A stretch of DNA of 51,500 bases, from the NCBI GenBank assembly GCA_947168005.1, contig CAMVKI010000002.1, positions 1 through 51,500 of the forward strand, written 5' to 3'. Shown here piece by piece: positions 5,386 through 25,251 of the stretch; position 1 is the first letter of the stretch, and each line of letters begins with the position of its first letter. The notes under the pieces are model-generated. The model made no database searches, was not told the origin of the DNA, and saw only the letters and a list, made by a program, of their open reading frames with translations. Source of the DNA: an uncultured Clostridia bacterium. Its GTDB lineage: Bacteria > Bacillota > Clostridia > Oscillospirales > Oscillospiraceae. Position numbers and translations under genes: made by a program.

Positions 5386-5443
5386 GAGATGGCCGCAGGG
5401 CTGTGCCGGAGCGGAAAACAAATCGCGGCGCGAGAAATGTATC

Positions 5444-5472
5444 TTGACAAAATGATGATTTTGTGGTATAAT
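5444..5472 (+). promoter_or_regulatory. Perfect consensus sigma-A promoter with extended -10
   Basis: TTGACA (5444-5449), 17-bp spacer, TATAAT (5467-5472), TGG immediately before the -10. Confidence 0.93.
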
Positions 5473-5599
5473 ACAGATAGTCCGGGAGGATAGTTTCTTT
5501 TAGAACAATAGTATCTTAGAAAGATGCAATCGGAAGCGGGGGGTGCTTTCGGGACGGGAGGCCGTTTTCCCGGAGATGAATGAAAACAGGAGGTACGAT

Positions 5600-5638
5600 A
5601 TGAAAACAGAAGCATGGAAGGGGAGGAGAACGGTATGA
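5600..5638 (+). CDS. Short leader ORF (12 aa, MKTEAWKGRRTV)
   Basis: AGGAGG 8-9 nt upstream. The stop overlaps the next start as ATGA (5635-5638). Confidence 0.45.
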   Translation: MKTEAWKGRRTV

Positions 5639-5982
5639 AGCCCTACGCAGTGCAAAGCTTTCGAAGTGACCGGGGAGAGGTGGCGGAGTGCCGGGTCCTG
5701 AAGCCCGGCGTCGAGAGCCTGCGGACCGAGGAAATCACCGGGACGGAGCTCACGCTGACGCCCAAGCCGGGTGTCCTCTACCGCTGCGGGGAGCTGCGCT
5801 TGCTGGACGTCAGCAGCTTCCCCGCCGCGGGCAGGCTCGTGATTTGGTTCACTTCCGGCGCCGCGCCGACCGCCACCGTGGGCATCGCCAACTTTGCCGC
5901 CGAGGCCAACAAGCGGTATCGCATCACGGTTGAGGACGGCTATGCCACCTACGATGCGTGGCCCGCAGGAGGTGTGGAATAA
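5635..5982 (+). CDS. Hypothetical protein, first full-length gene of a phage-tail-like cassette
   Basis: MKPYAVQSFRSDRGEVAECRVLKPG...; SD GGGGAGGAG upstream; stop overlaps next ATG (TAATG). Family not recognised with certainty. Confidence 0.65.
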   Translation: MKPYAVQSFRSDRGEVAECRVLKPGVESLRTEEITGTELTLTPKPGVLYRCGELRLLDVSSFPAAGRLVIWFTSGAAPTATVGIANFAAEANKRYRITVEDGYATYDAWPAGGVE

Positions 5983-6410
5983 TGCCGAATATCATTATGG
6001 CAGATAAGCCCACCGGGGTGAAGGTCACATCTTACGAAATCCCTGATGGGGTTTGGTCACTTGATGCGGCGTTTGCGAATGCAAACATACGGCTGATAGC
6101 GCAGAATGAAATCTTAATCTGGAACAACCGTGGAACCATACGGCAAAGCAGCGGCACAGCTGCCATAAAGTATGGCATGGCAGTCGTACAAAGCGGTGCA
6201 GCGAAGGAGAGCAAGAGCACACTGAAACGCATGGCATCTGTTGCTGCTCCGGATTCATCGACACCTGGAGCTTGGTCTAATTTTTCTGATGGTTATTCTA
6301 TCGAAAACGGCTGTTATAGGTGTACAAACAATTCTGCGGTTGCGCCTGGGAATGTGATAGATTTTATCCAAATCCCCTACAACATCGGGTGGGGCGCTTC
6401 GGAGGTGTAA
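5982..6410 (+). CDS. Hypothetical protein of the phage-tail-like cassette
   Basis: MPNIIMADKPTGVKVTSYEIPDGVWSLDAAF...; overlapping start/stop with the upstream gene. Confidence 0.65.
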   Translation: MPNIIMADKPTGVKVTSYEIPDGVWSLDAAFANANIRLIAQNEILIWNNRGTIRQSSGTAAIKYGMAVVQSGAAKESKSTLKRMASVAAPDSSTPGAWSNFSDGYSIENGCYRCTNNSAVAPGNVIDFIQIPYNIGWGASEV

Positions 6411-6413
6411 TCT

Positions 6414-6695
6414 ATGAATTATGCGAAGCTGAAAAACGGCCGCGTCTCCTACGCGCCCAACCCCATCCTCCGCAATGGCCTGTGGTACGGCAATCCTCCT
6501 GCCGCGGTGCTGGAGGCCGAGGGGTATAAACCCGTGATTTACACCGAGCCGCCCGATGTTGACCCCGGTTATATCCCGATTCCGCATTGGACGGAGCAGG
6601 AGGGAGCCATCGTGCAGATCTGGACGCAGGAGCCGGAGCCGGACGAGATCAGCGAGGACCGGGCCTGGCGCATTCTCACAGGGGAGGAGGAATAA
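6414..6695 (+). CDS. Phage-tail-associated protein (XkdW-like style)
   Basis: MNYAKLKNGRVSYAPNPILRNGLWYGNPPAAVLEAEGYKPVIYTEPP...WTEQEGAIVQIWTQEPEP resembles short proteins encoded after tail-fibre genes in Firmicutes prophages. Confidence 0.6.
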   Translation: MNYAKLKNGRVSYAPNPILRNGLWYGNPPAAVLEAEGYKPVIYTEPPDVDPGYIPIPHWTEQEGAIVQIWTQEPEPDEISEDRAWRILTGEEE

Positions 6696-6697
6696 GA

Positions 6698-7108
6698 ATG
6701 CCGAGCAAAGCGCATGTGAAAACACTGCGGCAGCACATGGAAAAAGGCACGGCTGCGCTGACCGACGGGGAGGCCCTGGAGGCTGTGGAGCTGTTCCCGG
6801 TCTGGAGACCCGAGCGCGACTATGTTCGGGGCGAGCGGCTGCGCTGGGAAGGACTGCTGTACAGGCTGATTCCGGAGACGCATCACAGTCAGGCGGACTG
6901 GCCCCCCGATCTGACCCCGGCTGTCTGGGCCAGGGTGGACGATCCCGCCGAGGAATGGCCCGTCTGGGTCCAGCCTCTCGGGCCCGAGGACGCCTATCCC
7001 GCCGGGGCCAGGGTGTCCCACAACGGGAAGCATTGGCGCAACACCCACGGCGACGGCAACGTCTGGGAGCCCGGCGTCTACGGCTGGACCCAAACAGAGA
7101 CGCCGTAA
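6698..7108 (+). CDS. Small protein with CBM5/12 (chitin-binding-type-3-like) C-terminal motif, phage-tail associated
   Basis: W..PLGPEDAYPAGARVSHNGKHWRNTHGDGNVWEPGVYGWTQ matches the aromatic CBM5/12 pattern. ATG at 6698 with GGAGGAATAAG SD; the longer ORF start at 6587 overlaps the upstream gene. Confidence 0.7.
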   Translation: MPSKAHVKTLRQHMEKGTAALTDGEALEAVELFPVWRPERDYVRGERLRWEGLLYRLIPETHHSQADWPPDLTPAVWARVDDPAEEWPVWVQPLGPEDAYPAGARVSHNGKHWRNTHGDGNVWEPGVYGWTQTETP

Positions 7109-7114
7109 AATTAT

Positions 7115-7156
7115 AAAAACGGGGTATGACACAGGCCGGTGTCATACCCCGTTTTT
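7115..7156 (+). terminator. Rho-independent terminator ending the phage-tail-like cassette
   Basis: AAAAACGGGGTATGACAC-aggccg-GTGTCATACCCCGTTTTT, perfect 18-bp stem. Confidence 0.93.
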
Positions 7157-7312: not shown

Positions 7313-8860
7313 ATGAAGAACAATATGCTCGACGCTTTCCTGAATAATGAGCCGAAGCTGGAGGATAAGCTGTACTGCAGAGGATTTCTGCTTACCGACG
7401 CCCCGGACTGCGAAACGCGGGCCCCGTTCCTGTGTCATTGGACGCGGCGGGAGCTTGGCACGGTGCGGATTTTCGTGCATCCGAAGCTGTCATTGCACAT
7501 CCGGGGGGAGTTCTGTCTGATCGGACACGCCTACGATCCGGTGTCTATGCTGCGTGACGAGTGTTCAATTCTGAAGTCTCTGTCGGAGGCGGAGGAGGAT
7601 TACCGGAGCTTCCATCAGCTCACCGGTGTTTTTACCCTGTTTCGCGTTACAGAGCGGGAGATCACCCTTTGGGGTGATCCCACCGGGATGCAGACAAATT
7701 TCTATGCCGTCCATGCCGGGAACCGCTATGTATCCTCCCACAGCACGCTGCTGGGCGAGCTGCTCGGGGCCCAGAGAGACCCCTATGTGGAGGCTTTGGC
7801 CCGCTACCGATTCTTTCCCCTTTTGGGGAACTCCCTGCCTGGGGATCTGACGCCCTATGTGGGGATCCGGCGCCTGGTGCCGAATCATCTGGTTCGGCTG
7901 AAGGCCTCCGGCGCGGAGACGGAACGCTTCTATACGCCGCACCGCTTGGAGCTCAGCAGGGAGGAGCTGACGGAGCGCTGCGCCGAGCTGCTCCGGCGGA
8001 ATCTTCAGCTGATTGCCGAGAAGTGGAAGCGGCCCGCCATCTCCCTGACCGGGGGCTGCGACAGCAAGACCACCCTGGCCTGCGCCGCGGGCTTTTATGA
8101 GCGTTTTTCCTATTTCAGTTATATCTCCTCCGACTCCGAACGAGTGGACGCGGAGGCGGCGGCGGAGATCTGTAAGGCCTTGGGCCTGCCCCATCGAATC
8201 TATCGGATCCCGGAGACGGACCGAGCGCTTCCCGGCACAGAGCAGGCTGCCCGTCTGCTGCGCTGGAATATGGGCGATCTGTGTGACTGCAACGCGAATG
8301 ACGTTCGGAAGCGCGTCTTCTTCGCGGACACCGCAGACTTTGATATCGAGGTCAAATCCTGGGCTTCGGAGGTCGGACGGGCCTACTATTCCAAGCGCTT
8401 CCACGGTCGGACGGATTTCGGTCCGGAGCCCACGCCGCGAGCCTGCACGGCGCTCTATAAATTCTTCCTGCACAATCGCCGCCTGGTCCGAAGGACCGAC
8501 CGGGTTTTCGCGGAGTACCTCGAACAATTCTTTGTGCAGGACAGGGAAAACCCGATTCCCTGGCAGGAGCAGTTTTTCTGGGAGCATCGAATGCCCAGCT
8601 GGAACGGGCTGGTCATTACCGGCGAGCATCGGTATTCCTTTGATATAACCATCCCCTATAACAACCGTCTGCTCCTGGAGCTCCTGCTGAGCGCGTCTGC
8701 GGAGGACCGCATCCATGATAATATTCATGCGGCGATCCGACAAAGCATGAATCCGGCAATCGACCAAACCGGGATCGCGGTCCAAAACCTGAAGCACACC
8801 GACAGGCGGGCAAAAATCGAATCCCTGTATTATTCCGCCATGACAAAGCTGCATTTTTGA
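7313..8860 (+). CDS. Asparagine-synthase-related protein (ATP-PPase domain, degenerate N-terminal Ntn-like domain)
   Basis: ISLTGGCDSKTTLACAAG (SGGxDS-like PPi loop). N-terminal GVFTLFRVTEREITLWGDPTGMQTNFYAV resembles the class II glutaminase fold, but no Cys2. ATG with GGAAGG SD. Confidence 0.8.
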   Translation: MKNNMLDAFLNNEPKLEDKLYCRGFLLTDAPDCETRAPFLCHWTRRELGTVRIFVHPKLSLHIRGEFCLIGHAYDPVSMLRDECSILKSLSEAEEDYRSFHQLTGVFTLFRVTEREITLWGDPTGMQTNFYAVHAGNRYVSSHSTLLGELLGAQRDPYVEALARYRFFPLLGNSLPGDLTPYVGIRRLVPNHLVRLKASGAETERFYTPHRLELSREELTERCAELLRRNLQLIAEKWKRPAISLTGGCDSKTTLACAAGFYERFSYFSYISSDSERVDAEAAAEICKALGLPHRIYRIPETDRALPGTEQAARLLRWNMGDLCDCNANDVRKRVFFADTADFDIEVKSWASEVGRAYYSKRFHGRTDFGPEPTPRACTALYKFFLHNRRLVRRTDRVFAEYLEQFFVQDRENPIPWQEQFFWEHRMPSWNGLVITGEHRYSFDITIPYNNRLLLELLLSASAEDRIHDNIHAAIRQSMNPAIDQTGIAVQNLKHTDRRAKIESLYYSAMTKLHF

Positions 8861-8864
8861 CGAT

Positions 8865-9848
8865 ATGAGATATACTGTCATTATTCCCATCTACAATTCC
8901 GAAGCCACCCTTCAACGCTGTCTGGACAGCCTGCTTTCGCAGCCCTGCCCGGACGCGGAGCTGCTGCTGATCAACGACGGCTCCACGGACCGCAGCGGGG
9001 AAATCTGTCAGGAGTACGCGCAGCGATACCCGAATCTCATCTGCCGGACGACGGAGAACCGCGGCGTATCCGCCGCCCGCAACCTGGGCCTGGAGCTGGC
9101 GCAGGGGACCTATATCCTCTTCGTGGACAGCGACGACTACGTCTCGCCGGACTACTTTCGGGCCATTGACCGGAGCCTGGCCCAGGGCGACCCGGAGCTC
9201 GTGATTTTTGCCCATCGGCTCTTCGGTCAGCGGACCTACGAGGTTCCGGTGGAGAATCGGACCGTGCGCGGCAGGGAGGAGACCCTGCGGGTTGTGGCGG
9301 ACTATCTGCGCAGGGGGGAGCTGAACACACTCTGGTCCAAGGTGTTCCGACGGGACCTCATCGAGGCGGAGGGCCTTCGTTTCAACGAGGCTCTGAGTAT
9401 CGACGAGGACATGAACTTTGTGTTCTCCTACAGCCTCCGGGTCAGCCGCATCAATATGATCGACGCGGTCCTCTACAACACCAGCCTGGAAAACGAGCAG
9501 TCCCTGACGAGAAAGCGCAGAGACTACCTCTGCGACCAGCTCCACGAGGCCGGCCTGCGGCGCTTTGCCATGCTCAAACGGCTTGCTCCGGCGGAGCAGC
9601 GCACGGGAAAGCTGGCCTCGACGGTGAGCTGGGTTTATTACCGGAGCGCCTATTCCTCGGCGGCGGAGCTCCTGAAGTATGCGCTGACGGGGAAGGAACG
9701 GAGAGGGAAGATCCGGGAGATCTGTGAGGTCTTCTCGGACTGTCCCCGGGACGTCCCCGCGCCGATTATGGCACTGCCCGTCCGTCTGCGGCTGACGGGG
9801 CTGATGGACCTGGCGGCAAAGGTCGCCGTCCGCAAGCGGAGAAGCTGA
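8865..9848 (+). CDS. GT2-family glycosyltransferase
   Basis: YTVIIPIYNSEATLQRCLDSLL, LLINDGSTDRSGEIC, VDSDDYVSPDYF. Confidence 0.93.
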   Translation: MRYTVIIPIYNSEATLQRCLDSLLSQPCPDAELLLINDGSTDRSGEICQEYAQRYPNLICRTTENRGVSAARNLGLELAQGTYILFVDSDDYVSPDYFRAIDRSLAQGDPELVIFAHRLFGQRTYEVPVENRTVRGREETLRVVADYLRRGELNTLWSKVFRRDLIEAEGLRFNEALSIDEDMNFVFSYSLRVSRINMIDAVLYNTSLENEQSLTRKRRDYLCDQLHEAGLRRFAMLKRLAPAEQRTGKLASTVSWVYYRSAYSSAAELLKYALTGKERRGKIREICEVFSDCPRDVPAPIMALPVRLRLTGLMDLAAKVAVRKRRS

Positions 9849-9877
9849 CAATCAACCAAAACGGGAGGAAGAGACGC

Positions 9878-10798
9878 ATGCCGTCTGAGATTACCCCGCG
9901 CCGCGGCTTCGTGACCATTGCCACGGGCAGCGAGCACTACTATCAGCTCGCCCTGAATCTGCTGCGCTCCTACCGCCGCAACGGCGGGGGAGGCGTCCCC
10001 TTCGCCATTATCGCCGAGGAGGAGAACCGATACACGGCGGAGTTCGACAAGGTCGTCCGGATGCCGTGCCCCGCCCACAGCTATCTGGACAAGCTGCGGC
10101 TCTTCGAGTGTCTGCCCTGGGAGGAGACGATCTTTATCGACGCCGACTGCCTGGTCTACGGCAGGATCGACGACTGGTGGGCGTATTTCGAGGATGCCGC
10201 CGACTTCTCCTGCTTCGGCTATGCCTACGAGGACCTGAACACGAAAAACGGCTGGTTCCGCTGGGAGGGCATGGGGGAGTTCAAGGAGCAGATCTCCTTT
10301 GTCCCCAGCTTCAGCGGCGGGATCTACTACGTTCGGAAAACGGAGACTGCGGGCCGGGTCTTTGCGCTGGCCCGATATGCCGCGGACCATTACGCGGAGT
10401 TCCCCTTCGCGATCTTTAACCGTCCGGCAGACGAGCCCGTCCTGGCCTTCGGCATGGCGGTCTGCGGGTGCAGGCCCGTGGACGTATCCGAGGTGGGCAT
10501 CTACGTCAAACGCCGGGACCTGCCCATGGACATTCTGGAGCCCCGGGCCAGCTGGACCTACAACGGCAGGACTTTCCCGGTCAAGCTGGTCCACTGGGGC
10601 AACTTCGGCACCATGAAGGCCCAGTACCTCCTGGAGGTCAAGCGGCTGGACCGGGAGCTGGCGGGGAAGCCGGCCATGACGCCCCTTGGCGAAAAGCTCC
10701 GCTACTGCCTGCTCCTGCGGCATGACTTTCTGACCCTGCTGAAACGGATCCGCCTGCGGCTCCGTCTGCTGGTGAAAACCGGGCACATGAAACCGTAA
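9878..10798 (+). CDS. Glycosyltransferase-like protein (nucleotide-diphospho-sugar transferase, GT8-like)
   Basis: GFVTIATGSEHYYQLALNLLRSYRRNG, ETIFIDADCLVYGRIDDWW (DxD). Confidence 0.7.
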   Translation: MPSEITPRRGFVTIATGSEHYYQLALNLLRSYRRNGGGGVPFAIIAEEENRYTAEFDKVVRMPCPAHSYLDKLRLFECLPWEETIFIDADCLVYGRIDDWWAYFEDAADFSCFGYAYEDLNTKNGWFRWEGMGEFKEQISFVPSFSGGIYYVRKTETAGRVFALARYAADHYAEFPFAIFNRPADEPVLAFGMAVCGCRPVDVSEVGIYVKRRDLPMDILEPRASWTYNGRTFPVKLVHWGNFGTMKAQYLLEVKRLDRELAGKPAMTPLGEKLRYCLLLRHDFLTLLKRIRLRLRLLVKTGHMKP

Positions 10799-10827
10799 AG
10801 GAACCGACGTTTGTCGGAGGAAACGAT

Positions 10828-11961
10828 ATGAAAATACTCTACACGGCCACCGTTCTGAGCCATATCTGCCAGTTCCACCTGCCCCACATGAAGCTGCTGC
10901 GGGAGCGGGGCTGGGAGGTCCACGTGGCCGCCCATGACAATCTGGCGGCGAAGAACGGCCTGCAATTGAAATACTGCGACAGATTCATCGAGACCCCCTT
11001 CTCCCGTTCCCCGAAAAGCCCGGACAATCTGCGGGCTTATCGGCAGCTCAAAAAGCTGCTGGGGTCGGAGCGCTATGACCTGATCCTCTGCAACACTCCC
11101 ATGGGGGGCATTGTCACCCGCCTGGCGGCGAAGAAGGCCCGGCGGCAGGGGACCAGGGTGGTCTATATGGCCCACGGCTTCCACTTCTTTAAGGGCTCCT
11201 CCGGGGCCGCCTGGCGGTTTTACTACCCCATCGAGAAGCACATGGCCAAGCGCTGCGACCTGCTGATCACCGTCAACGAGGAGGACTACGCCCTGGCGAA
11301 GGAGCGCTTCGCCGGACGCACGAAAATCGCCCATATCCACGGCGTAGGCGTGGACGAGACCCGCTATCATCCCGCCGGGCCGGAGGAGCAGCTTGCCCTG
11401 CGCCGGGCCGAGGGCCTGGCCCCGGAGGATTTTGTGATCCTCTGTACCGGCGAGCTCAACGAGAACAAAAATCAGAAGACCCTGATCTCCGCCGCGGCCC
11501 TGCTGAAGGACAAGCTTCCGAAGCTGAAGATCCTCCTGGCGGGCAACGGCCCGAAGGAGCAGGAGCTCCGGGCGCAGATCCGGGCGGAGAGCCTGGACAA
11601 AATCGTGAAGCTCTTGGGCTACCGCACGGACCTGGAGAAGGTCGTTCCGGCGGCGGATCTGATCGTCTCCTGCAGCCGCCGGGAGGGCATGCCTCTGAAC
11701 ATCATCGAGGCCATGCTCTGCAAAAAGCCCGTCGTCGCCTCCCACAACCGGGGCCACGACGAGCTGGTCCGGGAGGGGGAGACGGGCTTCCTCTTCGACG
11801 CGGGGGATGCCGAGCGCCTGGCCGCCCTGCTGCTGCGGCTCGCGGAGGAGCCGGAGCTGAGAAAGACCCTGGGCGAGGCCGGGGAGGCCGCCGCCCGGCC
11901 CTACGCCGTCCGCTCTACCCGGGAGGAGCTTTCCCGGCTGCTGAACGAGCTTGTACATTGA
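10828..11961 (+). CDS. GT4-family glycosyltransferase
   Basis: MKILYTATVLSHICQFHLPHMKLLRERGWEVHVAAHDN...; ILCTGELNENKNQKTLI; SCSRREGMPLNIIEAMLCKKPVVASHNRGHDELV. Confidence 0.93.
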   Translation: MKILYTATVLSHICQFHLPHMKLLRERGWEVHVAAHDNLAAKNGLQLKYCDRFIETPFSRSPKSPDNLRAYRQLKKLLGSERYDLILCNTPMGGIVTRLAAKKARRQGTRVVYMAHGFHFFKGSSGAAWRFYYPIEKHMAKRCDLLITVNEEDYALAKERFAGRTKIAHIHGVGVDETRYHPAGPEEQLALRRAEGLAPEDFVILCTGELNENKNQKTLISAAALLKDKLPKLKILLAGNGPKEQELRAQIRAESLDKIVKLLGYRTDLEKVVPAADLIVSCSRREGMPLNIIEAMLCKKPVVASHNRGHDELVREGETGFLFDAGDAERLAALLLRLAEEPELRKTLGEAGEAAARPYAVRSTREELSRLLNELVH

Positions 11962-11971
11962 AAGGACGCCT

Positions 11972-12844
11972 ATGAAAGCGGAAGCATATCAACTGACGGA
12001 TATTTGGGATGCGGAGCAATCCATTCTCAATGAGATCGACCGGGTTTGCCGGGAAAACCATCTGCGCTATTCCCTGGCCTACGGGACCCTGATCGGCGCA
12101 GTTCGCCACGGGGGCTTCATCCCCTGGGACGACGATATTGACCTGATGATGCCCCGGGAGGACTATGAGAGGCTGATCGCCCTCTGGCCCTCCGCCGCGT
12201 CAAAGGATTTTGTCGTGGACAACTGCGACGAGAACCCGGATTCGTTTAATAATTTTTCCAAAATCCGCAAGGACCACACAACATTTTTGCAGTTTGAGGT
12301 CGAGCGGACCCGACACTACCACAAGGGATTCTTTGTGGACCTGTTCCCCGGCGACCGGGTTGCGCCGGGACGCCTGTCCAGGAAGCTCCAATACCTGGAT
12401 TTCGCGTTGAATCTGCTGTTTAACCGAGGCTGCCGCAGCGGAAGCGGCGGCATTGTGGGACTCACGGAGCGGGTCCTGCTGCGCCTCGTGCCGAAAAAGC
12501 GCTATCACGCGGTCAGCCTCTATTTTGGCCGCAGAAGCCGGCGCTGGAACAAAAACGAAGAGGCGCAGTATGTCTTCCCCTCCACCATCGGCGAGTGCAG
12601 ACTGTATTATCCGGCGAAGCTCTTCGAGCAGCTGGAGCCGATCCGGTTCCGGGACAGGGAGTATCTTGCCGTAAAGGACAGGGACCTTGCCCTGCGGATC
12701 GAATACGGAGATTATATGCAGCTGCCCCCCGAGGAGAAGCGCGTTTGGAAGCATCACCCGATCCTTGTGGATTTCCACCGGAACTATGAGGAGCTAAGCC
12801 AAGAGGAGCAGATCAGTGAGAAGCACAGAGCGGAAGACAGCTGA
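11972..12844 (+). CDS. LicD-family protein
   Basis: LRYSLAYGTLIGAVRHGGFIPWDDDIDLMMPREDYERL is the LicD signature. ATG at 11972 after an AAAGGA SD. Confidence 0.93.
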   Translation: MKAEAYQLTDIWDAEQSILNEIDRVCRENHLRYSLAYGTLIGAVRHGGFIPWDDDIDLMMPREDYERLIALWPSAASKDFVVDNCDENPDSFNNFSKIRKDHTTFLQFEVERTRHYHKGFFVDLFPGDRVAPGRLSRKLQYLDFALNLLFNRGCRSGSGGIVGLTERVLLRLVPKKRYHAVSLYFGRRSRRWNKNEEAQYVFPSTIGECRLYYPAKLFEQLEPIRFRDREYLAVKDRDLALRIEYGDYMQLPPEEKRVWKHHPILVDFHRNYEELSQEEQISEKHRAEDS

Positions 12845-12857
12845 AGGGGATCATCCC

Positions 12858-13979
12858 ATGGGGAACAAGGTTCTGGAAATCTGCGCAAAGCTCAATATCG
12901 GCGGCGCGCAGCTTGTCGCTGCCAACATATCGAAATACGCGCCGGAGGGGCTTGCGATTACCTATCTGGTCTTTGGGGATGAGATCGGGGAATATGAGCC
13001 CGAGATTCTCGCCAGAGGGCACCGTGTCGTCCATATGCGGTCTCCGCGCGGCAATTCCCTGGGCTATATGCGCAGTCTGATTTCCCTCATGCGGAGCGAG
13101 GGCTTTGACGCGGTGCACTGCCACACGATGTTTTCCTCCGGGACGGCCATGCTTGCCGCCTGGCTGGCAGGGGTTCCGGGGCGAATCAGCCATTCCCACA
13201 CGGCGAAGGACGACGCCGGCCAGTCCCTCCCGAGAAGGCTTTACCGAAGGATGATGCGCGGCCTGATGCGCCTGTTCGGGACAGACTATCTCGCCTGCGG
13301 GGAGGACGCCGGAAGCGAGCTTTATGGGAAAAACTGGTTCCGGCGCCATGGACGCGTGATCAAAAACGGAATTGATACCGCCCTGTTTCGGTATGACCCG
13401 GCGGTCAGACAGAGCGTTCGCGCCCGGTATGGGGTGGAAGACAGCTTTGTCATCGGGCATGTCGGGCATTATGTCCCGGTCAAGAACCAGAGCTTTTTGA
13501 TTTCCCTGATGCCGGAGATCCTCCGGATCAGGCCCGACGCGGTGCTGCTGATGTTTGGGGAAGGAGAAGACCGGGAAAAGCTGCGGGCGGCCATTGACGC
13601 CGCGCAGCTGGGCAATGCGGCAAGGCTGATGGGGAATGTGCGCGACGTGTATCGCGTCCTTTCCGGCCTGGACGTGTTTGCCTTCCCCTCGCTGTTTGAA
13701 GGTACGCCCCTGGCGCTGATTGAAGCCCAGGCGAACGGCCTGCCCTGCGTGATCTCGGACCGGATTCCGAAGGACGCCTGTCTGACAGACTTGATTTCAG
13801 CGATCCCCTTGGAAAAACCGGAGGAATGGCTGCAAAAAATCTGTACAGCCACGAGAGAGCCCGAAACAAATTGGAGTGAGCTTTTGAGGCAAAACTATGG
13901 AACCGTGGAAAACTCTATGGAAAGCCTCTATCGCTTGTTCGGGCAATACCATAACAGGAAGCGGAGAGAAGCGTTATGA
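12858..13979 (+). CDS. GT4-family glycosyltransferase
   Basis: LEICAKLNIGGAQLVAANISKY; IGHVGHYVPVKNQSFLI; FAFPSLFEGTPLALIEAQANGLPCVIS. Confidence 0.92.
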   Translation: MGNKVLEICAKLNIGGAQLVAANISKYAPEGLAITYLVFGDEIGEYEPEILARGHRVVHMRSPRGNSLGYMRSLISLMRSEGFDAVHCHTMFSSGTAMLAAWLAGVPGRISHSHTAKDDAGQSLPRRLYRRMMRGLMRLFGTDYLACGEDAGSELYGKNWFRRHGRVIKNGIDTALFRYDPAVRQSVRARYGVEDSFVIGHVGHYVPVKNQSFLISLMPEILRIRPDAVLLMFGEGEDREKLRAAIDAAQLGNAARLMGNVRDVYRVLSGLDVFAFPSLFEGTPLALIEAQANGLPCVISDRIPKDACLTDLISAIPLEKPEEWLQKICTATREPETNWSELLRQNYGTVENSMESLYRLFGQYHNRKRREAL

Positions 13980-15286
13980 AGAAAGTATTGGTCATCATGA
14001 GCACCTTTGCGCCTCTTAACAGCTGCGGCTCGATCCCGAATACAAAATTGGTCAAATATCTGGCCCGGGAGGATACGGAGCTCACTTTGATCGCCTACAC
14101 GGCTCTGCCCCATGACCCCCAGGATGAAACGCTGCTTCCGAAGGAGATGGAACGGATCCGCAGCTTCCGGGTTCGGCACAGCCCGCTCTTTCTGAAAACC
14201 CTCAGCCGGAGCAGACAGGCAATCACCGACAGCGGCGTAAAGCAAAAAATGAAGGCCGACCAACGGCCTCTGCAGGCCTGGATCGTCTCCCATCTGAAGC
14301 GGGCCTATATCTCCGCCAGGAGCCGGGACTGGGCGCAAAGCGCGATTCGGATCATTCGCCGTGAGCTGAAAAACGAGCATTTTGACGCGGTATATTCCAG
14401 CTATCCCTCCTATGAGGCCCATCTTGCCGCCAGATATGCCCGGAAAAAACACCTGGCAGACAAATGGATCGCGGATTTTCGGGATCCGATGGGCTATGTG
14501 GGCTTCGACAAGTACGGATATAAGCGTGCGATTCGCAGGCAGCACAGGGTGGAACGCTGGGCGGACCGCATTACCGTCGTTTCGGAAGGCGCTCTGGACA
14601 AGTTTCGCTTCCCGGACGTTCCGGAGGAGAAGCTCAGCTATATTCCGAACGGATATGATCCGGAGGATTTCACGGTCTGCGCGAAGAAGCAGAACGAATC
14701 TGACCGGGTGCTCCGGCTCTTTTATGCCGGGATGCTGTATGAGGGAAGACGGGATCTGCGCGTCGTCTTTCGTGCCATCTCTGAGCTGATAGAGGAGGGG
14801 AGAGTGGCGCCGGAACGGATCTCGGTCGAATACGCCGGCAATGAATGGACGGTGCTGTGCGACTTCGCGGAAACCTATGGTCTGCGCGGGATCTGCAAGG
14901 AATACGGCTATGTTCCCAGACACCGGGTGATGGAGATTATGGAGCAGATCGACGTGACGCTGGTCTGCTCGGTAAACACCGCGGAAGATCACGGCGTCGT
15001 TACGGGGAAGGTATTTGAACTTCTCCTCGTGGAAAAGCCCATTGTGACGATTATCAACGGAGATCTGCCAAACAGCGAGCTCGCCGGGATCATCAGAGAA
15101 TGCAATGCCGGCGTCGTTTTTGAGGAGGCAACGCAGGAGCGCGACTATCCCGCGCTGAAGCAGTGGCTGCTGAGGGCCTACGAGAGCAAGCAGAAGACCG
15201 GAACGGTCCCCTCGGAGCTTGACCGGGCCAAACGCGAGCAATACTCCTACGCGCAGATCGCCGGGAAGCTTTTTTCCATATTATAA
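13976..15286 (+). CDS. GT4-like glycosyltransferase
   Basis: DRITVVSEGALDKFRF, SYIPNGYDPEDF, LRLFYAGMLYEGRRDLRVVFRAI; ATGA overlap with the upstream gene. Confidence 0.82.
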   Translation: MKKVLVIMSTFAPLNSCGSIPNTKLVKYLAREDTELTLIAYTALPHDPQDETLLPKEMERIRSFRVRHSPLFLKTLSRSRQAITDSGVKQKMKADQRPLQAWIVSHLKRAYISARSRDWAQSAIRIIRRELKNEHFDAVYSSYPSYEAHLAARYARKKHLADKWIADFRDPMGYVGFDKYGYKRAIRRQHRVERWADRITVVSEGALDKFRFPDVPEEKLSYIPNGYDPEDFTVCAKKQNESDRVLRLFYAGMLYEGRRDLRVVFRAISELIEEGRVAPERISVEYAGNEWTVLCDFAETYGLRGICKEYGYVPRHRVMEIMEQIDVTLVCSVNTAEDHGVVTGKVFELLLVEKPIVTIINGDLPNSELAGIIRECNAGVVFEEATQERDYPALKQWLLRAYESKQKTGTVPSELDRAKREQYSYAQIAGKLFSIL

Positions 15287-15322
15287 CATGTATCAGCAAA
15301 GGAATCTGCACGCCGGGAAGGG

Positions 15323-16066
15323 ATGAGATCGAATATGATTGACTTGAATAAAAGACGCAATCAGCTCCTGTATCGCGCCGTACAGGCATGGAGAAGCTGC
15401 GGCTTATACGCCTGGATTGACCGACGTATTTCCAGAAAAATGCAAAAGCGGCTGCATGTCGCGGACTTTACGATCCTGAGCTCCAACTGCATCGGAGGCA
15501 CGATTTATCACCGCTTCGGAAGGCAGTTCAAAAGTCCGACGGTCAACGTCTGTTTTACGCAGCCGGACTTCGCGCAGTTTGTCATCCATCTGGCGCATTA
15601 TCTTGCGCAGCCGCTGAGCTTCTTTGACGCCGGGACCCCTTATCCCACCGCGATTCTCAAGGGAGACAAGGCTGATATTCCGGATATCCGGATTGACTTC
15701 AACCATTACGCGGACAGGAAGACGGCCGAGGAGAAATGGGAAGAGCGCAAGAAGCGCATTGATTATGAGCATTTATATATCATCTTGTATAAGCTGGACG
15801 GGCTCAGCATGGAGCTCATCCGCAAGCTGGAAACGGTCCCATGCAGCAACAAGGTTCTGTTGACGGCAAAGCCGTTGCCGGAGGTCTCCTGGTCTTACTA
15901 TATCAAGCCGAATCCGCACCAGCAGTATTCCAGCGCTTACCTGGGGAAGGACCTTTTCGGAAGACGCTGGTACGAAAAACGCTTCGATGTGGCGGCATTC
16001 CTGAATCAAGGTGAAACACAAGGGCAATCCGCCGAAAAAACGGACTGCGATAATCACAACACATAG
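15323..16066 (+). CDS. DUF1919-family exopolysaccharide-associated protein
   Basis: FTILSSNCIGGTIYHRFGRQFKSPTVNVCFTQPDFAQFV shared with the ORF at 30730. Confidence 0.8.
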   Translation: MRSNMIDLNKRRNQLLYRAVQAWRSCGLYAWIDRRISRKMQKRLHVADFTILSSNCIGGTIYHRFGRQFKSPTVNVCFTQPDFAQFVIHLAHYLAQPLSFFDAGTPYPTAILKGDKADIPDIRIDFNHYADRKTAEEKWEERKKRIDYEHLYIILYKLDGLSMELIRKLETVPCSNKVLLTAKPLPEVSWSYYIKPNPHQQYSSAYLGKDLFGRRWYEKRFDVAAFLNQGETQGQSAEKTDCDNHNT

Positions 16067-16083
16067 GCTTCGCGGGGTTATGC

Positions 16084-16911
16084 ATGGAAGGCAATCAAAG
16101 AAACGAAGCGGGTCGTGCGCAGGCGTCGGTCAGCCTTTCCTTTGACGACGGAAGAGCGGACAACGCCGTTCTGTTCGACGAATTGTTGATTCCCGCCCGA
16201 ATCCCGGTGAGCTTGAACATTGCCACGGGCTATCTGGACGGGACCTGTCCGGCGGCGACGCGGCCGACGGAGAAGGCGCCGATGTCCGTGGAGGACCTTC
16301 AGCGCTTCGCGGCGAATCCGCTGGTGGAGATCGCCATGCACGGAGACGCCCACCGGAACACGGAGGAGGATATCCTTCGGGGCGAGGCGAAGCTGCGGAC
16401 CTGGCTGGGATTGGACCGGAAAATTCCGCTGGGCTTTGCGAGTCCGAACTCCGGGATGGACCTTTCCTTCTTTCGATCGCCCGCGGGGGAGGCCCTGCGG
16501 GAGCGGGTGGCCTATCTGCGAACAGGACCGCGCATCTGCTCCAAAAAAGCCCTCCGTCTGTTCTGCCGCAAGGTCGGCAGGGTCATCCGTCTGCCGCTCC
16601 TGTATCGGATCGCTTATCACGATACAATCATGACGGAGCGCGACGGGAAGATTCTCTACAGCGTCCCCGTCATGGGGAACACGAGCGTGCCCCAGGTCCT
16701 GGCGGCAGTCCGGGACTGTGTCAAGCGCCGGGGGGCCCTGGTGCTGCTGTTCCACAGCGTGGAGCCGAGCCCTGCGAAGGCGGACGTCTGGTCCTGGAGC
16801 GAGGAGAAGATGCGCCGCCTCTGCGACGCCCTGCTGGAGCTGCAGGAACGCGGCGTTCTGCGGGTCTGCACCAGCGCCGAACAGTTCAGGCTGCTGCGGG
16901 AACGAACATAA
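16084..16911 (+). CDS. Polysaccharide deacetylase (NodB-like) protein
   Basis: ASVSLSFDDGRADNAVLFDELL, IPVSLNIATGYLDG, VEIAMHGDAHRNTEE. Confidence 0.78.
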   Translation: MEGNQRNEAGRAQASVSLSFDDGRADNAVLFDELLIPARIPVSLNIATGYLDGTCPAATRPTEKAPMSVEDLQRFAANPLVEIAMHGDAHRNTEEDILRGEAKLRTWLGLDRKIPLGFASPNSGMDLSFFRSPAGEALRERVAYLRTGPRICSKKALRLFCRKVGRVIRLPLLYRIAYHDTIMTERDGKILYSVPVMGNTSVPQVLAAVRDCVKRRGALVLLFHSVEPSPAKADVWSWSEEKMRRLCDALLELQERGVLRVCTSAEQFRLLRERT

Positions 16912-16929
16912 ATCGAGAAGGAGAACCCT

Positions 16930-17988
16930 ATGGAAAACCCCCTGGTATCCGTTGTCATCCCCGTGTATAACGGCGCGGCCTTTCTGGAGCGGGCGGCGGC
17001 CTCCGTCCTGGGCCAGCCCCGGGCGGACCGGCTGGAGCTGCTGATCGTGGACGACGGCAGCACCGACGGCACCGGGGCCATCTGTGACCGCATCGCCGCG
17101 GAGCACCCCGCCCCGGCGGTCCGGGTCTTCCACCAGGCCAACGGCGGGGCCTTCTCCGCCCGAAACCTGGGCATCGAGGCGTCCCAGGGCGCCTATATCG
17201 GCTTTCTCGACGCCGACGACTGGTGGGAGGCGGACTTTTTCGACGAGGCCCTGTTGGCCCTGCTGGAGGAGGACTTCGACCTGTACCGCTTCTCCTACCA
17301 TGCCGTCAGCATGAACCGCCGCTGGGAAAAGCCCTACGCCCTGGAGGACGAGGCCCGGCGGGAGCTGCCGCCGGACCCGGAGCGGCCCTACACCCTGGGC
17401 TTCTGGTCCTGCCTTTACAACCGGAAGCTCCTGGACCGGCACGGGATTCGCTATCTGCCCGTGCGGATCAACGAGGACATCCCCTTCGCCCATCTGACCA
17501 CGGCCCTGGCGCAATCCATCCGGTACAGCAGCCGGGTCATGATGGGCTACTGGGTCAACCCGGCCAGCTGCATCCACACCCACAGCGAGCGGGAGATCCT
17601 GGAGACCTCCCGGAAGGCCTTCGAGCTGGAGGAGGCGGATTTCCGGGCGAAGGGCTTTGCCGACTACTCCACCAAGCGCCAGGAGCTGACCATGATCCTG
17701 GAAAAGCTCCCCCGGCTCTGCTGTGAGATGGGCTGGAAGGAGCTGAAGGCCTATCTGGACGGGCCGGACTTCGCCATCCTCCGCCAGGACGAAATTCGCC
17801 CCTGGCAGAGCGCCGAGCCGACCCTGGCCGCCTGGCGGACCCACCCCTTCCGCTTCTGGCTGCGGTCCAGGCTCCACCCCGGCCTTTCCCTGTTTTTGAA
17901 GCGCCGGCTCTTTTCCCTGCGGATTCTCCAGCCCGTCGTGAGCTGGTTCCAATACAAGCTGATGTTCCGGTGGAAGCGGGTGAGGTAA
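16930..17988 (+). CDS. GT2-family glycosyltransferase
   Basis: VSVVIPVYNGAAFLERAAASVL, LIVDDGSTDGTGAICD, FLDADDWWEADFF. Confidence 0.93.
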   Translation: MENPLVSVVIPVYNGAAFLERAAASVLGQPRADRLELLIVDDGSTDGTGAICDRIAAEHPAPAVRVFHQANGGAFSARNLGIEASQGAYIGFLDADDWWEADFFDEALLALLEEDFDLYRFSYHAVSMNRRWEKPYALEDEARRELPPDPERPYTLGFWSCLYNRKLLDRHGIRYLPVRINEDIPFAHLTTALAQSIRYSSRVMMGYWVNPASCIHTHSEREILETSRKAFELEEADFRAKGFADYSTKRQELTMILEKLPRLCCEMGWKELKAYLDGPDFAILRQDEIRPWQSAEPTLAAWRTHPFRFWLRSRLHPGLSLFLKRRLFSLRILQPVVSWFQYKLMFRWKRVR

Positions 17989-17990
17989 TT

Positions 17991-19103
17991 ATGGCAGTCA
18001 AGACCCTGTTTTTCATTGAGACCCTGCGGGGCGGCGGCGCGGAGAAGGTGCTCTGCGACCTGGTCAACGCCATGGACCCGGAGAAATTCGAGATCACGGT
18101 CCAGACCCTCTGGAAGGCGGACGCGGCCCGGTTTCTGAAGCCCTGGATCCGCTATCGGTACTGCTATGCCGCCCCCGGCAGGCTGAACAGCCTGCGCAGC
18201 CGCGCGGAGGCCGCCGCGGGCCTGACCTACCCCCTGCACATCCGGGACAATTACGAGCTCGAGGTCGCCTATTTGGAGTTCGGCTCCACGAAGATTCTGG
18301 CGGGCTCCACCAACAAAAAAGCAAAGAAGCTTGCCTGGGTCCACAGCGATTTGGAGCGGAAGCTGGACGGGAAGCCCGAGACCCGGGCGAAGCTCGCCCG
18401 GCAGTACGCGGCCTACGACCGGATCGTCTGCGTCTCCAACACGGCGAAGGAGAGCTTCGTCCGTCTGTTCGGACGGGAATCCGAGGTCTCGGTGCTGTAT
18501 AACACCGTGGACGATGCCGCCATCCGGGAGAAGGCGGAGCTGACCCTGCCCGCGCTGCCCGCAAAGCGGCGGCTGAGTGTCGCGGCGGTGGGCCGCCTGT
18601 CTGAGGAGAAGTGCTACGACCGGCTGATTCGGGTCCACAAACAGCTTCTGGACGCGGGACTTGCCCACGATCTCTGGATCGTCGGGGAGGGGGACCAGCG
18701 GGGTGTGCTGGAAGCTCTGATCGCGGAGCTCGCCCTGACGGACTCCGTGAAGCTCTTTGGCTTTCAGTCCAACCCCTACCCCTTTATGAAGGCGGCGGAC
18801 CTGCTGGTCTGCTCCTCCCGCTACGAGGGCCTGAGCACCTTCGTCACCGAGGGCCTGGTCCTCGGAAAGCCCATTGTGACCACGGAGTGCTCCGGCATGC
18901 GGGAGCTGCTGGGGGATTCGGAATACGGCCTGATCGTGGAAAATGAGGAAGAGGCCCTCCGCGAGGGTATGGAGCGGCTGCTGCGCGGCGCCGCCCTGCG
19001 GGAGCGCTTCGCCGCCGCCGCGGCGGTCCGGGGCCGGGACTTCTCCGCCAGAGCGCGTGCCGGGGAAACGGAAGGCTTTTTTATCGACCTTCTTAAGGAA
19101 TGA
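17991..19103 (+). CDS. GT4-family glycosyltransferase
   Basis: KTLFFIETLRGGGAEKVLCDLVNAM, SVAAVGRLSEEKCYDRLI, VCSSRYEGLSTFVTEGLVLGKPIVTTECSGMREL. Confidence 0.93.
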   Translation: MAVKTLFFIETLRGGGAEKVLCDLVNAMDPEKFEITVQTLWKADAARFLKPWIRYRYCYAAPGRLNSLRSRAEAAAGLTYPLHIRDNYELEVAYLEFGSTKILAGSTNKKAKKLAWVHSDLERKLDGKPETRAKLARQYAAYDRIVCVSNTAKESFVRLFGRESEVSVLYNTVDDAAIREKAELTLPALPAKRRLSVAAVGRLSEEKCYDRLIRVHKQLLDAGLAHDLWIVGEGDQRGVLEALIAELALTDSVKLFGFQSNPYPFMKAADLLVCSSRYEGLSTFVTEGLVLGKPIVTTECSGMRELLGDSEYGLIVENEEEALREGMERLLRGAALRERFAAAAAVRGRDFSARARAGETEGFFIDLLKE

Positions 19104-20198
19104 GTGATTATGGACTATTACCTGCTGCTCGTGGTGATGGTGCTCTTTACGGCGCTGATCATGCACGGGACCCGGGAAAAAAATCTCCAATATGTGATCG
19201 TCGCCTGTCTGCTCCTGTACGCGATTTACGGTCTGCGGAACACCTACGAGATCGGCGACGACGTCAGAACCTCCTACCTGGCGAACTTCCGGAAAATGGA
19301 GACAATGAGCTGGGACGGGATCATCAGCTTCACAGAGGGCCGGAACACCTTGTTTTATTTCTTAACCAAGGCCTTCGCCGTGTATATCAGCACGGACTAT
19401 CAGCTCTATATCTCTGTGATCGCGGCCTTCGTCACGATCTGCTTCGGGCGGATGGTCTATCAATACTCGCCCGACCCGCTCCAGAGCATCCTCTATCATT
19501 TCGGCCTGCTGTATTTTACCTTCCACTTTTCCGCCCTGAAGCAGAGCATCGCCATGGCCTTCCTGATGCTGGCCTTCGACGCGATCATAGAGAAAAAGCC
19601 CATTAAATTCATCGTGATCGTTCTGCTGGCGGGCCAGATTCACCTCCCGGCGATGATCTTCCTGCCGGCCTACTGGATCGCGAAGATCAAGCCCGGCCGC
19701 GCCTATCTGCTGTTGCTGGTGGGCCTGCTGGTGCTGACCTATGTGTTCCGCAACGAGATTATCAATTTCCTGATGAAATACTATAAGGACGAGGAAGCCA
19801 GCATCGATCTCTCGGATGTGACCTTCCTGCGCACCAAGGCGCTGATTATGATTGTGATCGTAGCGGCGGCGGTGGTGTTCCGGGTGCCTACGACGGAGGA
19901 TCGGGTGTATGTCATCCTGCTGCAGCTCTGCGCCATGGCCATCGTGTTCCAGACCTTCTGCGGCTACAACAACATCTTCGAGCGGCTGGCGGACTATTAT
20001 TTCCAGTTCTCCGTCATCTTTATCCCCATGGTCTTCGACAAAAACGCCAAGCGAAGATCCCTGATCAACTGGCGGCTTCTCCAGGCGGCGGATACCATAG
20101 CGCCCTATCTGTTCTGCGGCTTCGGCGTCTACCGCTTTTTGAACGTCGCCCGCGGCGACTGGCATCTCTATCCCTTCAAATTCTTCTTCCAACAGTAG
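19104..20198 (+). CDS. EpsG-family membrane protein (putative polysaccharide polymerase)
   Basis: Polytopic; YAIYGLRNTYEIGDDVRTSYLANFRKM..., HFSALKQSIAMAFLMLAFDAIIEKKPIKFI..IHLPAMIFLPAYWIAK typical of EpsG. GTG start at 19104 or ATG at 19110. Confidence 0.82.
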   Translation: MIMDYYLLLVVMVLFTALIMHGTREKNLQYVIVACLLLYAIYGLRNTYEIGDDVRTSYLANFRKMETMSWDGIISFTEGRNTLFYFLTKAFAVYISTDYQLYISVIAAFVTICFGRMVYQYSPDPLQSILYHFGLLYFTFHFSALKQSIAMAFLMLAFDAIIEKKPIKFIVIVLLAGQIHLPAMIFLPAYWIAKIKPGRAYLLLLVGLLVLTYVFRNEIINFLMKYYKDEEASIDLSDVTFLRTKALIMIVIVAAAVVFRVPTTEDRVYVILLQLCAMAIVFQTFCGYNNIFERLADYYFQFSVIFIPMVFDKNAKRRSLINWRLLQAADTIAPYLFCGFGVYRFLNVARGDWHLYPFKFFFQQ

Positions 20199-20221
20199 AG
20201 CATCCTGCGAGGTGATTCCCA

Positions 20222-21274
20222 ATGACTGTCAGCGTGATCATTCCGGCCTATCAGTGCAGGGCCACCCTCCGGGAGACGGTCTCCCGGGTCCTCGGCATCG
20301 GGCTCCCCCTGGCGGAGCTCCTGCTGATCGACGACGGCTCCACCGACGGCACGGCGGCGCTCTGCGACGCCCTGGCGGGAGAATATCCCGCGGTCCGCTG
20401 TGTCCACAAGCCCAACGGCGGCGTCTCCTCGGCCCGGAATCTGGGAATCGAGGAGGCCAGGGGCGACTATCTCTGGTTCGTGGACGCCGACGACGGGGCC
20501 CTGCCCCTGCCCGCGGCGGCCCTGGAGGAGCTGGAGCGCTCCCAGCCGGGCGTGGTTCTCTTCGGCATGGAGTTCCGCTATTTCCGGGGCGAGCGGCTGA
20601 TGAAGACCGAGGCCCTCCGCTTCGGGCAGCGGCTGCTGCTGGAGCGGAACGAGCTGGGCCCGCGGTTCGCGGAGCTCTTCCGCACGAATTACCTCTCCCC
20701 GGTGTGGAACAAGCTGTTTCGCCGCAGCCTGCTGCTCGAAGGCGGCGTCCGCTTCGACCGGGGGCTCACCAACTACGAAGATTTGGCTTTTTCTCTGGAA
20801 GCGATGGCCCACAGCGCCCGCTGTCTGGTGCTTCCGGAGATCTGCTATCAATACAATACCGACTACGACCACGACCGGACCGTGGACCGGATCGCCAAAA
20901 TCGACGCCGTGGCGGCCAATACGGACCTGATCGCCAAGCGCTTTTTCGATCTGGCAGAGCGCTGCGGCTTTGCAGGCGAGGACCGGGAGGCCCTGAAGGC
21001 AATCGTGCTCCAAATCTATCTGGATCTGTTTTGGGTCAAGATGCAGACCGCCCCCCTTGGGGAGGTCCGGAAGCACTGCGCGGAATTCGCGGCAAACCGG
21101 AATTTCCGGGAATGCGCGGAGGCGCTTCCCCGGCTCTCCGAGGGGAGCCGGCGGCTCTGCGGGCAGCTCGTCGCCGGAAAGGCCCTGCCCATCTGGAGCC
21201 GGGTCCGTTACCGGAGCGTCCGGGCCAGGGCCGTCCGGGCGGTCAAGCCCCTGCTGAAACGAGGCGGAATATGA
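20222..21274 (+). CDS. GT2-family glycosyltransferase
   Basis: VSVIIPAYQCRATLRETVSRVL, LIDDGSTDGTAALCD, GGVSSARNLGIEEARG..FVDADD. Confidence 0.93.
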   Translation: MTVSVIIPAYQCRATLRETVSRVLGIGLPLAELLLIDDGSTDGTAALCDALAGEYPAVRCVHKPNGGVSSARNLGIEEARGDYLWFVDADDGALPLPAAALEELERSQPGVVLFGMEFRYFRGERLMKTEALRFGQRLLLERNELGPRFAELFRTNYLSPVWNKLFRRSLLLEGGVRFDRGLTNYEDLAFSLEAMAHSARCLVLPEICYQYNTDYDHDRTVDRIAKIDAVAANTDLIAKRFFDLAERCGFAGEDREALKAIVLQIYLDLFWVKMQTAPLGEVRKHCAEFAANRNFRECAEALPRLSEGSRRLCGQLVAGKALPIWSRVRYRSVRARAVRAVKPLLKRGGI

Positions 21275-22164
21275 ATCCATTGCTGCAAAAGCTGTTTCTG
21301 ACGCACAGCTATTTTACCGTCGCCCTCCGCCCCAGAGCGGAGCGGAGCGTCCTGGAGGAACCGGGCTTTACCCCGGCCTTCGTCCTGCCCGCCGAGGCCG
21401 CCCGCTGGGCGGCGGACCCCATGCTGGCGGAGGAGGACGGAAGGACCTGGCTCTTCTATGAGGCCGTGGAGAACGACCACGGCCACATCGAGGCCGCGGA
21501 AGTTCTGCCGGACGGCTCCCTGGGAGAGCCCCGAGTCATTTTGAAAGACGAATGTCACTACTCCTACCCCTTCGTCTTCCGCTGGCAGGGCATCTGGTAC
21601 ATGATTCCCGAGTCCTCGGCGGCGAGGGAGCTCCGGCTGTACCAGGCGGAGGCCTTTCCCTACCGATGGAAGCTCCGGGAGGTCCTGCTCCGGGAGCGGG
21701 CCGTGGACACCACGGTCTATGAATGGGACGGCGGTCTCCGGCTGCTGAGCTTTTTGACGGACGGGAAGACCGAGCGGGTGACGCCCAGGGCCTACAGTCT
21801 GCGCTTGAGCGCCGCCGAAGCCGCTCTGGAGCCGCTGGACTGGAAAGAGTACGACGGCCTCCGGGTCCGGGGCGCGGGACCGGTCTTCGCCGAGAACGGC
21901 GTCCTGTACCGGCCCGTCCAGCGGAATCAGGAGCAGCGCTACGGCGACGCCGTGGAGCTCGTCCGCCTGCGGGATACGGAGCAGTCCCACGCCGAGGAGC
22001 CCGCGGGGCGCCTGCAAACACCGCTGGGAAAACTGGCCGGGATTTACGTGGACGGCGCCCACAGCTACTGCCGCTCCTCCCGCTTCGAGGCCGTCGATCT
22101 GCGCCTCAGGGACTTCGACCTCTGGAAGCTGCCCCGGCGGCTGATCCGCCGCTTGAAAGGATAA
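21271..22164 (+). CDS. Glucosamine inositolphosphorylceramide transferase-like (GINT1 N-terminal, beta-propeller-like) protein
   Basis: AADPMLAEEDGRTWLFYEAVENDHGHIEAAEVLPDGSLGEPRVILKDECHYSYPFVFRWQGIWYMIPESSAARELRLYQAEAFPYRWKL. Starts with ATGA overlap at 21271. Confidence 0.7.
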   Translation: MNPLLQKLFLTHSYFTVALRPRAERSVLEEPGFTPAFVLPAEAARWAADPMLAEEDGRTWLFYEAVENDHGHIEAAEVLPDGSLGEPRVILKDECHYSYPFVFRWQGIWYMIPESSAARELRLYQAEAFPYRWKLREVLLRERAVDTTVYEWDGGLRLLSFLTDGKTERVTPRAYSLRLSAAEAALEPLDWKEYDGLRVRGAGPVFAENGVLYRPVQRNQEQRYGDAVELVRLRDTEQSHAEEPAGRLQTPLGKLAGIYVDGAHSYCRSSRFEAVDLRLRDFDLWKLPRRLIRRLKG

Positions 22165-22174
22165 GGAGCAAGAC

Positions 22175-23176
22175 ATGGACATTGATATCGTAGTTCTCTG
22201 GGTGGACGGCAGCGATCCCGCCTGGCAGGCCCAGAAGGCGAAGTACCAGGGCAAGACCCTGACCGACGCCAATTCCGTCAACCGCTTCCGGGACTGGGGC
22301 CTCATGCCCTACTGGTTCCGGGGGATCGAGCGCTTCGCCCCCTGGGTGCGGACCGTCCATTTCGTCACCTGCGGCCACGTGCCGGAGTTCCTGAACCTGG
22401 ACGCCCCCAGGCTGCACCACGTCCGCCACAGCGACTATATCCCTGCGGAGTATCTGCCCACCTTCAGCGCCAACACCATTGAGATGAATGTCCACCGGAT
22501 CCCCGGCCTGGCCGAGCGCTATGTGTTCTTCAACGACGACATGTTCCTGCTGCGGCCCCAGCCGGAGACGAATTTCTTCCGGGACGGCCTGCCCTGCACC
22601 TTCGGCGGGGAGGTCCCCGCCGCCTTCCGGGGCGTCCCGGGGATCTGGCAGCATCTGATTGCCAACGACCTGCGGGTCATCAACAACCACTTCCATAAGC
22701 CGGAGCAGGTCCGAAAAAACGGGAAAAAATACGCAAACCGGGCCTACCCCTGGAAGGACAATCTCCGCACCAGGCTGCTGGAGCGGCTCTACCCGGAGAA
22801 CTTCCTGGGCTTCAAGAACCTCCACGCCCCCGCCGCCTTCCTGAAATCGACCATGGAGAGGATCTGGGCGGAGGAGCCGGAGCTGCTGGAGGCAACCACC
22901 GCCAGGCGCTTCCGCTCCAACGAGGACGTGAACCAGTGGCTGGCCCTCTGGTGGCAGGTGGCCGCGGGGGAATTCAGCCCCTTCATGACGGACAACGTGG
23001 TGGAGGACTGCAGCCCCGATACCGTGGACCGGCTCTGCGGCCTGATCCGCGGTCAGGAGCACGACATGGTGTGCATCAACGACCCCTCCGGGGACATCCC
23101 CTTCGAGGCCCTCGCCGCCGAGCTGAAGGCGGCCTTCGAGACCATCCTGCCGGAGAAGAGCAGCTTTGAAAAATAA
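22175..23176 (+). CDS. Stealth-family sugar-phosphate transferase
   Basis: DIDIVVLWVDGSDPAWQAQKAKY, RFRDWGLMPYWFRGIERFAPWV, RYVFFNDDMFLLRP: Stealth CR1/CR2 motifs. Confidence 0.93.
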   Translation: MDIDIVVLWVDGSDPAWQAQKAKYQGKTLTDANSVNRFRDWGLMPYWFRGIERFAPWVRTVHFVTCGHVPEFLNLDAPRLHHVRHSDYIPAEYLPTFSANTIEMNVHRIPGLAERYVFFNDDMFLLRPQPETNFFRDGLPCTFGGEVPAAFRGVPGIWQHLIANDLRVINNHFHKPEQVRKNGKKYANRAYPWKDNLRTRLLERLYPENFLGFKNLHAPAAFLKSTMERIWAEEPELLEATTARRFRSNEDVNQWLALWWQVAAGEFSPFMTDNVVEDCSPDTVDRLCGLIRGQEHDMVCINDPSGDIPFEALAAELKAAFETILPEKSSFEK

Positions 23177-23205
23177 GCGTATTCCAACAATCATGGAGAA
23201 TCGGA

Positions 23206-24195: not shown

Positions 24196-24225
24196 ATTGA
24201 AACTATCTGCTTTACGGAGGCTTTT

Positions 24226-25239: not shown

Positions 25240-25251
25240 GGAGGAAAAACT

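Follow-up and report, generated by a model that had tools for sequence, protein, structure and literature searches.

A four-gene cassette beside surface-glycan genes as the probable tail-tip locus of a dispersed, podovirus-type, GTA-like element

The window, meaning the whole 51,500-nucleotide stretch of DNA analysed here, contains a compact unit of four small genes (g1 to g4) with its own promoter and terminator, followed by a long surface-glycan locus. Its features are:

5439..5457, + strand: operator copy 1, GTATCTTGACAAAATGATG, overlapping the -35 and common to 37/37 perfect genus-wide matches
5444..5472, + strand: promoter TTGACA-17-TATAAT with extended -10 (TGG), read from the sequence
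5473..5509, + strand: leader insert from the -10 to the second operator, a degenerate hairpin in the window copy
5511..5526, + strand: operator copy 2, GTATCTTAGAAAGATG, 38 nt after TATAAT where 4 is usual
5600-5638, + strand: leader ORF of 12 codons plus stop, with an ATGA overlap with the g1 start
5635-5982, + strand: g1, 115 aa, predicted tail-fibre/adaptor protein
5982-6410, + strand: g2, 142 aa, hypervariable swap slot, predicted receptor-specificity protein
6414-6695, + strand: g3, 93 aa, conserved, between the swap slot and g4
6698-7108, + strand: g4, 136 aa, CBM5/12 carbohydrate-binding module protein
7115-7156, both directions: intrinsic terminator with a stem of 18 pairs
7313..45849, + strand: glycan locus with glycosyltransferases, LicD, an ABC transporter, and acyl- and pyruvyl-transferase type genes

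The first-pass annotation had described a perfect promoter, a short leader ORF, four small, tightly packed genes and a terminator with an 18-bp stem, and all were recovered at these coordinates. The promoter matches consensus at 12/12 positions (5444-5472, + strand) with TG before the -10, g1 and g2 overlap at a TAATG junction, and internal stops number zero in g1, g2, g3 and g4. The surface-glycan locus that it had placed beside the unit is also present, with a GT2 gene at 8865 and LicD at 11951. Two similar ABC-transporter ATPase genes with identical first residues lie near each other in this glycan locus (32541-33845 and 35654-36934). The MAG (2.58 Mb, 84% complete) holds one copy of the cassette. 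The leader ORF is not conserved in relatives across the upstream regions compared, and an Rfam search of the leader gave weak matches alone, below the gathering score. By inspection of the ORFs of the 51.5-kb window we saw no capsid, integrase, holin or lysin gene, in agreement with the earlier description, and the structural, lysis and integration genes of an intact prophage were not found around the cassette.

The assignment of g4 as CBM5/12-like is borne out by Pfam CBM_5_12 (E 4.7e-11, 43 bits against a curated cut-off of 26.2). It also matches the phage family phrog_18593 (E 4.1e-17), and its relatives in the PDB are CBM proteins, including chitinase A1. Significant Pfam matches were not obtained for g1, g2 or g3. 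The earlier suggestion that g3 is XkdW-like was dropped, as a Pfam profile search up to E 10 returned no match, XkdW included; g3 is possibly an assembly or chaperone-like factor. The AF2 model of g1 has a pLDDT of 76 and its Foldseek matches are viral tail-fibre-like, while the best hit in a fold search of the PDB, phage CBA120 tailspike TSP4, was not significant (E 0.04). Its N-terminus, MKxYVIQxFxSDxGE, is of a type common to four glycan-linked copies, and the protein also has a beta-sandwich domain that phage-located copies share. Single-sequence AF2 gave no usable model of g2 (pLDDT 29.7).

Homologues of g1, g3 and g4 occur in 8-10 of the 23 genomes of the genus, the window's own counted, and a homologue of g2 in 1/22 genus relatives. 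Among cassette pairs, g1 is alignable in 44/45, g3 in 21/21 and g4 in 28/28, against 1/55 over full length for g2. A receptor-specificity gene, the role predicted for g2, would be expected to vary in this way. A pattern scan for g4 across genome contigs found 5 loci, with patterns that were too narrow. Some relatives of the cassette lie in phage tail regions (L036, L039, L043 and L045) and others stand alone. The stand-alone copies of the window, L037, L047 and L048 have the common g1 N-terminus, which is unseen in most phage-located copies read; that of L049 is a distant version of it. No orphan-type g1 was confirmed in viral contigs. The C-terminus of g1 and the N-terminus of g2 in the window are closest to the prophage copies L036 and L045, and therefore modules have been exchanged. 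Intact four-gene cassettes occur outside prophages in several species, rather than solely within prophages with a broken copy here.

When the regions upstream of the stand-alone cassettes are aligned, they have in common TATCTTGAMA-N14-TGRTATAAT and, further downstream, a second GTATCTT site; L038 departs from the promoter pattern at two bases and L048 at one. The resulting composite operator is GTATCTTGAMAAA-n-GA; its usual repeat distance is 37 bp, with the second copy starting 4 nt after the -10 in 38/47 sites. Four orphan-type cassettes have a 34-35 nt insert between the operator copies, and in three of them it forms a strong hairpin (z of -1.87, -3.88 and -3.18 in L037, L047 and L048, compared with -0.70 in the window). 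We searched the 23 genomes of the genus for this operator and then read 43 loci. Among the loci read, 37/37 perfect matches precede phage-type modules, a count in which some module categories derive from the operator loci themselves, while capsid/portal and g1-g4 were defined independently. By module, 15 sites lie before the main operon, 11 before DUF6291, 5 before tip cassettes, 4 before primase/DUF5906 genes, 1 before tip plus lysis genes and 1 before DUF6291 plus an ATPase. The 33-bp promoter pattern was found at 17 sites in 9 genomes of the genus, compared with 7 perfect matches in 392 genomes from the rest of the family, and the reversed-pattern control gave 0 matches in all genomes. It is very likely, on this sequence evidence, that the cassette belongs to a phage-derived operator regulon.

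Other members of the regulon are more diverse. Single DUF6291 genes sit under the operator between host genes, in recurring places across species and next to polA/tRNA-synthetase-type or hydrogenase-type genes (L116, L117, L122-L125, L130, L133, L135, L137, L138, L145, L146, L148, L150, L152 and L154). At L121 (G005:C100, from 2634), tip-like, holin-like and endolysin-like genes are under the operator, in a layout resembling that described for FpGTA II. CHC2-zinc-finger primase-like and DUF5906 genes are under the operator at L115, L119, L126 and L141. Replication-type genes are unusual for a GTA and count against reading the regulon as GTA-like. They are not reported for FpGTA (PMC12946183); run-off replication in Bartonella offers a comparison (PMC2697382).

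The main operon encodes a P22-type portal, scaffold, major head protein, internal virion protein, TerS and TerL, and is flanked by divergent genes for an XRE repressor and an ImmA-like protease, as in the copy at L158 (G016:C27:5000-23621, 1119-13321). Profile matches include P22_portal (1.2e-25), phrog_1357 for the major head protein (1.8e-67) and phrog_511 for the internal virion protein (3.7e-38), along with TerL, Terminase_2, HTH_3, Peptidase_M78 and Amidase_2. The capsid gene is found in 20/23 genomes of the genus at 72-100% identity with no stops, and in 52/401 genomes of the family. No integrase was found in the main loci read, and pnp adjoins the main operon in 9/19 genomes. The window's own genome carries the capsid gene on contigs C181 and C223 (L227, L228) with the portal end, scaffold, TerS and TerL, so that main element and cassette lie on different contigs. 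The XRE/ImmA end is absent from this MAG at a contig break, and the regulator is seen in relatives alone. The cassette is therefore neither a self-contained unit nor just a mobile one: its promoter is that of a genus-wide phage-derived regulon, and this genome carries the capsid, portal and terminase genes of that regulon at other places.

Two observations connect the cassette with this main operon. In one genome (G015), g1-g4 are embedded in the main operon, with the portal gene on one side and the capsid gene on the other, so a tip of this kind is indeed found together with such a particle. The p117-p94 form of the main operon, which is without g1-g4, is the one present in all seven genomes that have a separate cassette, and the separate cassette is present in 7/11 p117-p94 genomes against 0/8 others (Fisher p = 0.013). 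One contig, L049 (G004:C68), carries a capsid gene of 77% identity together with g1/g3-like, holin-, lysin-, integrase- and replication-like genes. It is possibly a still-mobile relative, and some such elements may still be mobile. In G020, siphovirus tail genes and capsid genes meet at g1 on contig C27 (L039/L040/L041). Near-identical tip modules from two elements may have been mis-assembled there, and G020 was left out as key evidence.

Ratios of dN/dS are 0.18-0.25 for g4 and 0.23-0.37 for the capsid gene, with saturated values for g1; g4 is under purifying selection. At synonymous positions, divergence of the capsid, portal and XRE genes correlates with that of the flanking host gene pnp (Mantel r 0.49-0.65, p 0.002-0.04). 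No significant amino-acid co-divergence was seen between capsid or portal and the nuoE-like, glnS-like, hydrogenase and pnp proteins, in a comparison of few genomes and very conserved host genes.

The separate cassettes adjoin glycan genes in 6/7 cases, and three follow a related metallophosphoesterase gene at the locus end. Window glycan genes at 31406-42288 recur beside cassettes in other species. Four of the glycan-linked cassettes may go back to a single ancestral locus, and they do not count as independent. The window and L048 are the only cassette pair with related g2 (44% identity), and they also have the most alike glycan genes of any cassette pair (84-95% over several genes). As a single data point this is suggestive only. 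Their g1 and g2 are only 38-44% alike, so the cassettes did not travel recently along with that glycan block. At L046 (G008:C166), tip, holin-like and amidase-like genes lie beside a DltA/B/D-like surface-modification operon, names given by sequence look.

We consider the cassette to be the receptor-recognition (tail-tip) locus of a domesticated, dispersed, podovirus-type, GTA-like element, with a probability of roughly two in three. A tip role is likely on the sequence evidence, and for GTA activity of the element the balance tips slightly in favor. The sequence itself shows the shared operator, the main element in the same genome, the swap-slot pattern and the glycan-locus position in several species; we infer that the tip joins this particle and that host DNA is packaged in it and carried to other cells. 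The composite operator at each locus would place all of them under one common regulator, and the protein binding it would most likely be the XRE repressor working with the ImmA-like protease. Upon induction, all scattered loci would be switched on together. The g1 product would join the short tail, g2 would set receptor specificity, g3 would help assembly, and the CBM of g4 would hold the particle to a cell-surface sugar. With the tip locus kept among glycan genes, the range of recipients would be coupled to the type of glycan. Whether the displayed and the sought sugar are thereby inherited together, linking self-recognition to HGT, is a tentative proposal that we regard as rather doubtful.

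The suggestion of a domesticated, tail-derived sugar-binding unit survives in its main part, given the homologues at phage tail and tip positions, the CBM in g4 and the other copies at glycan loci. The unit is unlikely to act as a secreted, free-standing sugar binder, because virion proteins of this kind usually act within the particle.

Other readings of the same loci have to be weighed. The dispersed element could make PBSX- or tailocin-like particles that kill competitors and deliver no useful DNA, with the tip in the glycan locus letting the cell avoid or match its own sugar type. The genomic evidence for such killing particles equals that for a GTA-like element, lysis genes occur in the wider set, and the FpGTA study itself says that its particles might act like PBSX (PMC12946183). 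TerS and TerL are nonetheless intact and conserved, suggesting DNA packaging, yet PBSX also packages DNA; we find a killing role unlikely. We also think it quite improbable that the cassette is a prophage remnant or a reservoir of receptor-binding proteins, in which tail-tip pieces recombine into glycan loci as a hotspot for foreign DNA. The phage-located homologues (L036, L039, L043 and L045) and the exchanged modules agree with such traffic, but the operator is common to dispersed non-tail modules in many species, and the intact frames, the g4 dN/dS of about 0.2 and the g1 N-terminus particular to glycan-linked copies point to a maintained function. A plain prophage remnant was set aside as the main reading because of the shared operator and the intact genes. 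Least probable are glycan-binding proteins domesticated to serve the glycan locus in assembly, sizing or masking without a particle: the CBM5/12 module and the repeated glycan-locus position fit, but the cassette is driven by the phage regulon's promoter and not by one of the glycan genes, it has its own terminator, and in G015 the main capsid operon includes g1-g4.

If the cassette is indeed the tip locus of a GTA-like element, a receptor-binding gene placed in a surface-glycan locus bears on who receives packaged DNA, and hints at a way in which a gut-type relative of Clostridium might fit gene delivery to the sugar type of the cell surface. Because the operator tags the loci, a scattered element of this sort can be traced purely by sequence, and a candidate regulator can be named.

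Among known systems, P22-like podoviruses share the portal (Pfam P22_portal) and the head gene content, whereas here the genes are scattered, the main loci read have no integrase, and the capsid gene is near-universal in the genus. RcGTA of Rhodobacter capsulatus, which is siphovirus-like, resembles the present element in its dispersed loci and polysaccharide-binding tip proteins, but is alphaproteobacterial and has other regulators. We know of no report of an RcGTA receptor-binding gene inside a polysaccharide locus. The RcGTA spike and tail fibre bind capsule and extracellular polysaccharide (PMC10218006). The pairing of an XRE protein with an ImmA-type protease recalls ICEBs1, where ImmR and ImmA are an XRE repressor and an ImmA/IrrE-type metalloprotease, as described in PMC8960796; that pair controls one integrative element, whereas the candidate pair here would control genome-scattered loci.

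GTAs have been characterized by structural proteins derived from Caudoviricetes, endogenisation often at multiple loci, vertical inheritance and co-diversification with the host, and by encapsidation of random host DNA, a genome of their own that cannot be packaged whole, and delivery of DNA to other cells (PMC9662315). The present element has Caudoviricete-derived structural proteins and is endogenised as dispersed modules under one operator. GTA-like packaging was recently found to be widespread in gut Clostridia, with genes identified only for Faecalibacterium (PMC12946183). FpGTA of Faecalibacterium prausnitzii, a podovirus-like, GTA-like element whose 40-nm capsids hold 8-9 kb of host DNA and whose tail fibre, receptor-binding protein and lysis genes are in a separate operon (PMC12946183), is the closest described system by architecture, and was compared on architecture alone. 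Both have a podovirus-like portal, scaffold, capsid, TerS and TerL in one operon of ~10 kb and a separate tip operon, and both belong to gut Bacillota; FpGTA is present in every Faecalibacterium genome examined, as the capsid gene here is near-universal in its genus. They differ in gene order, the main operon here having the portal first and the terminase last, in the regulon, which here also takes in DUF6291 and primase/DUF5906 loci, and in the presence of a candidate XRE/ImmA regulator, where the text of PMC12946183 names no promoter or repressor. Here, moreover, the tip cassette lies in surface-glycan loci and shares its operator with the main operon.
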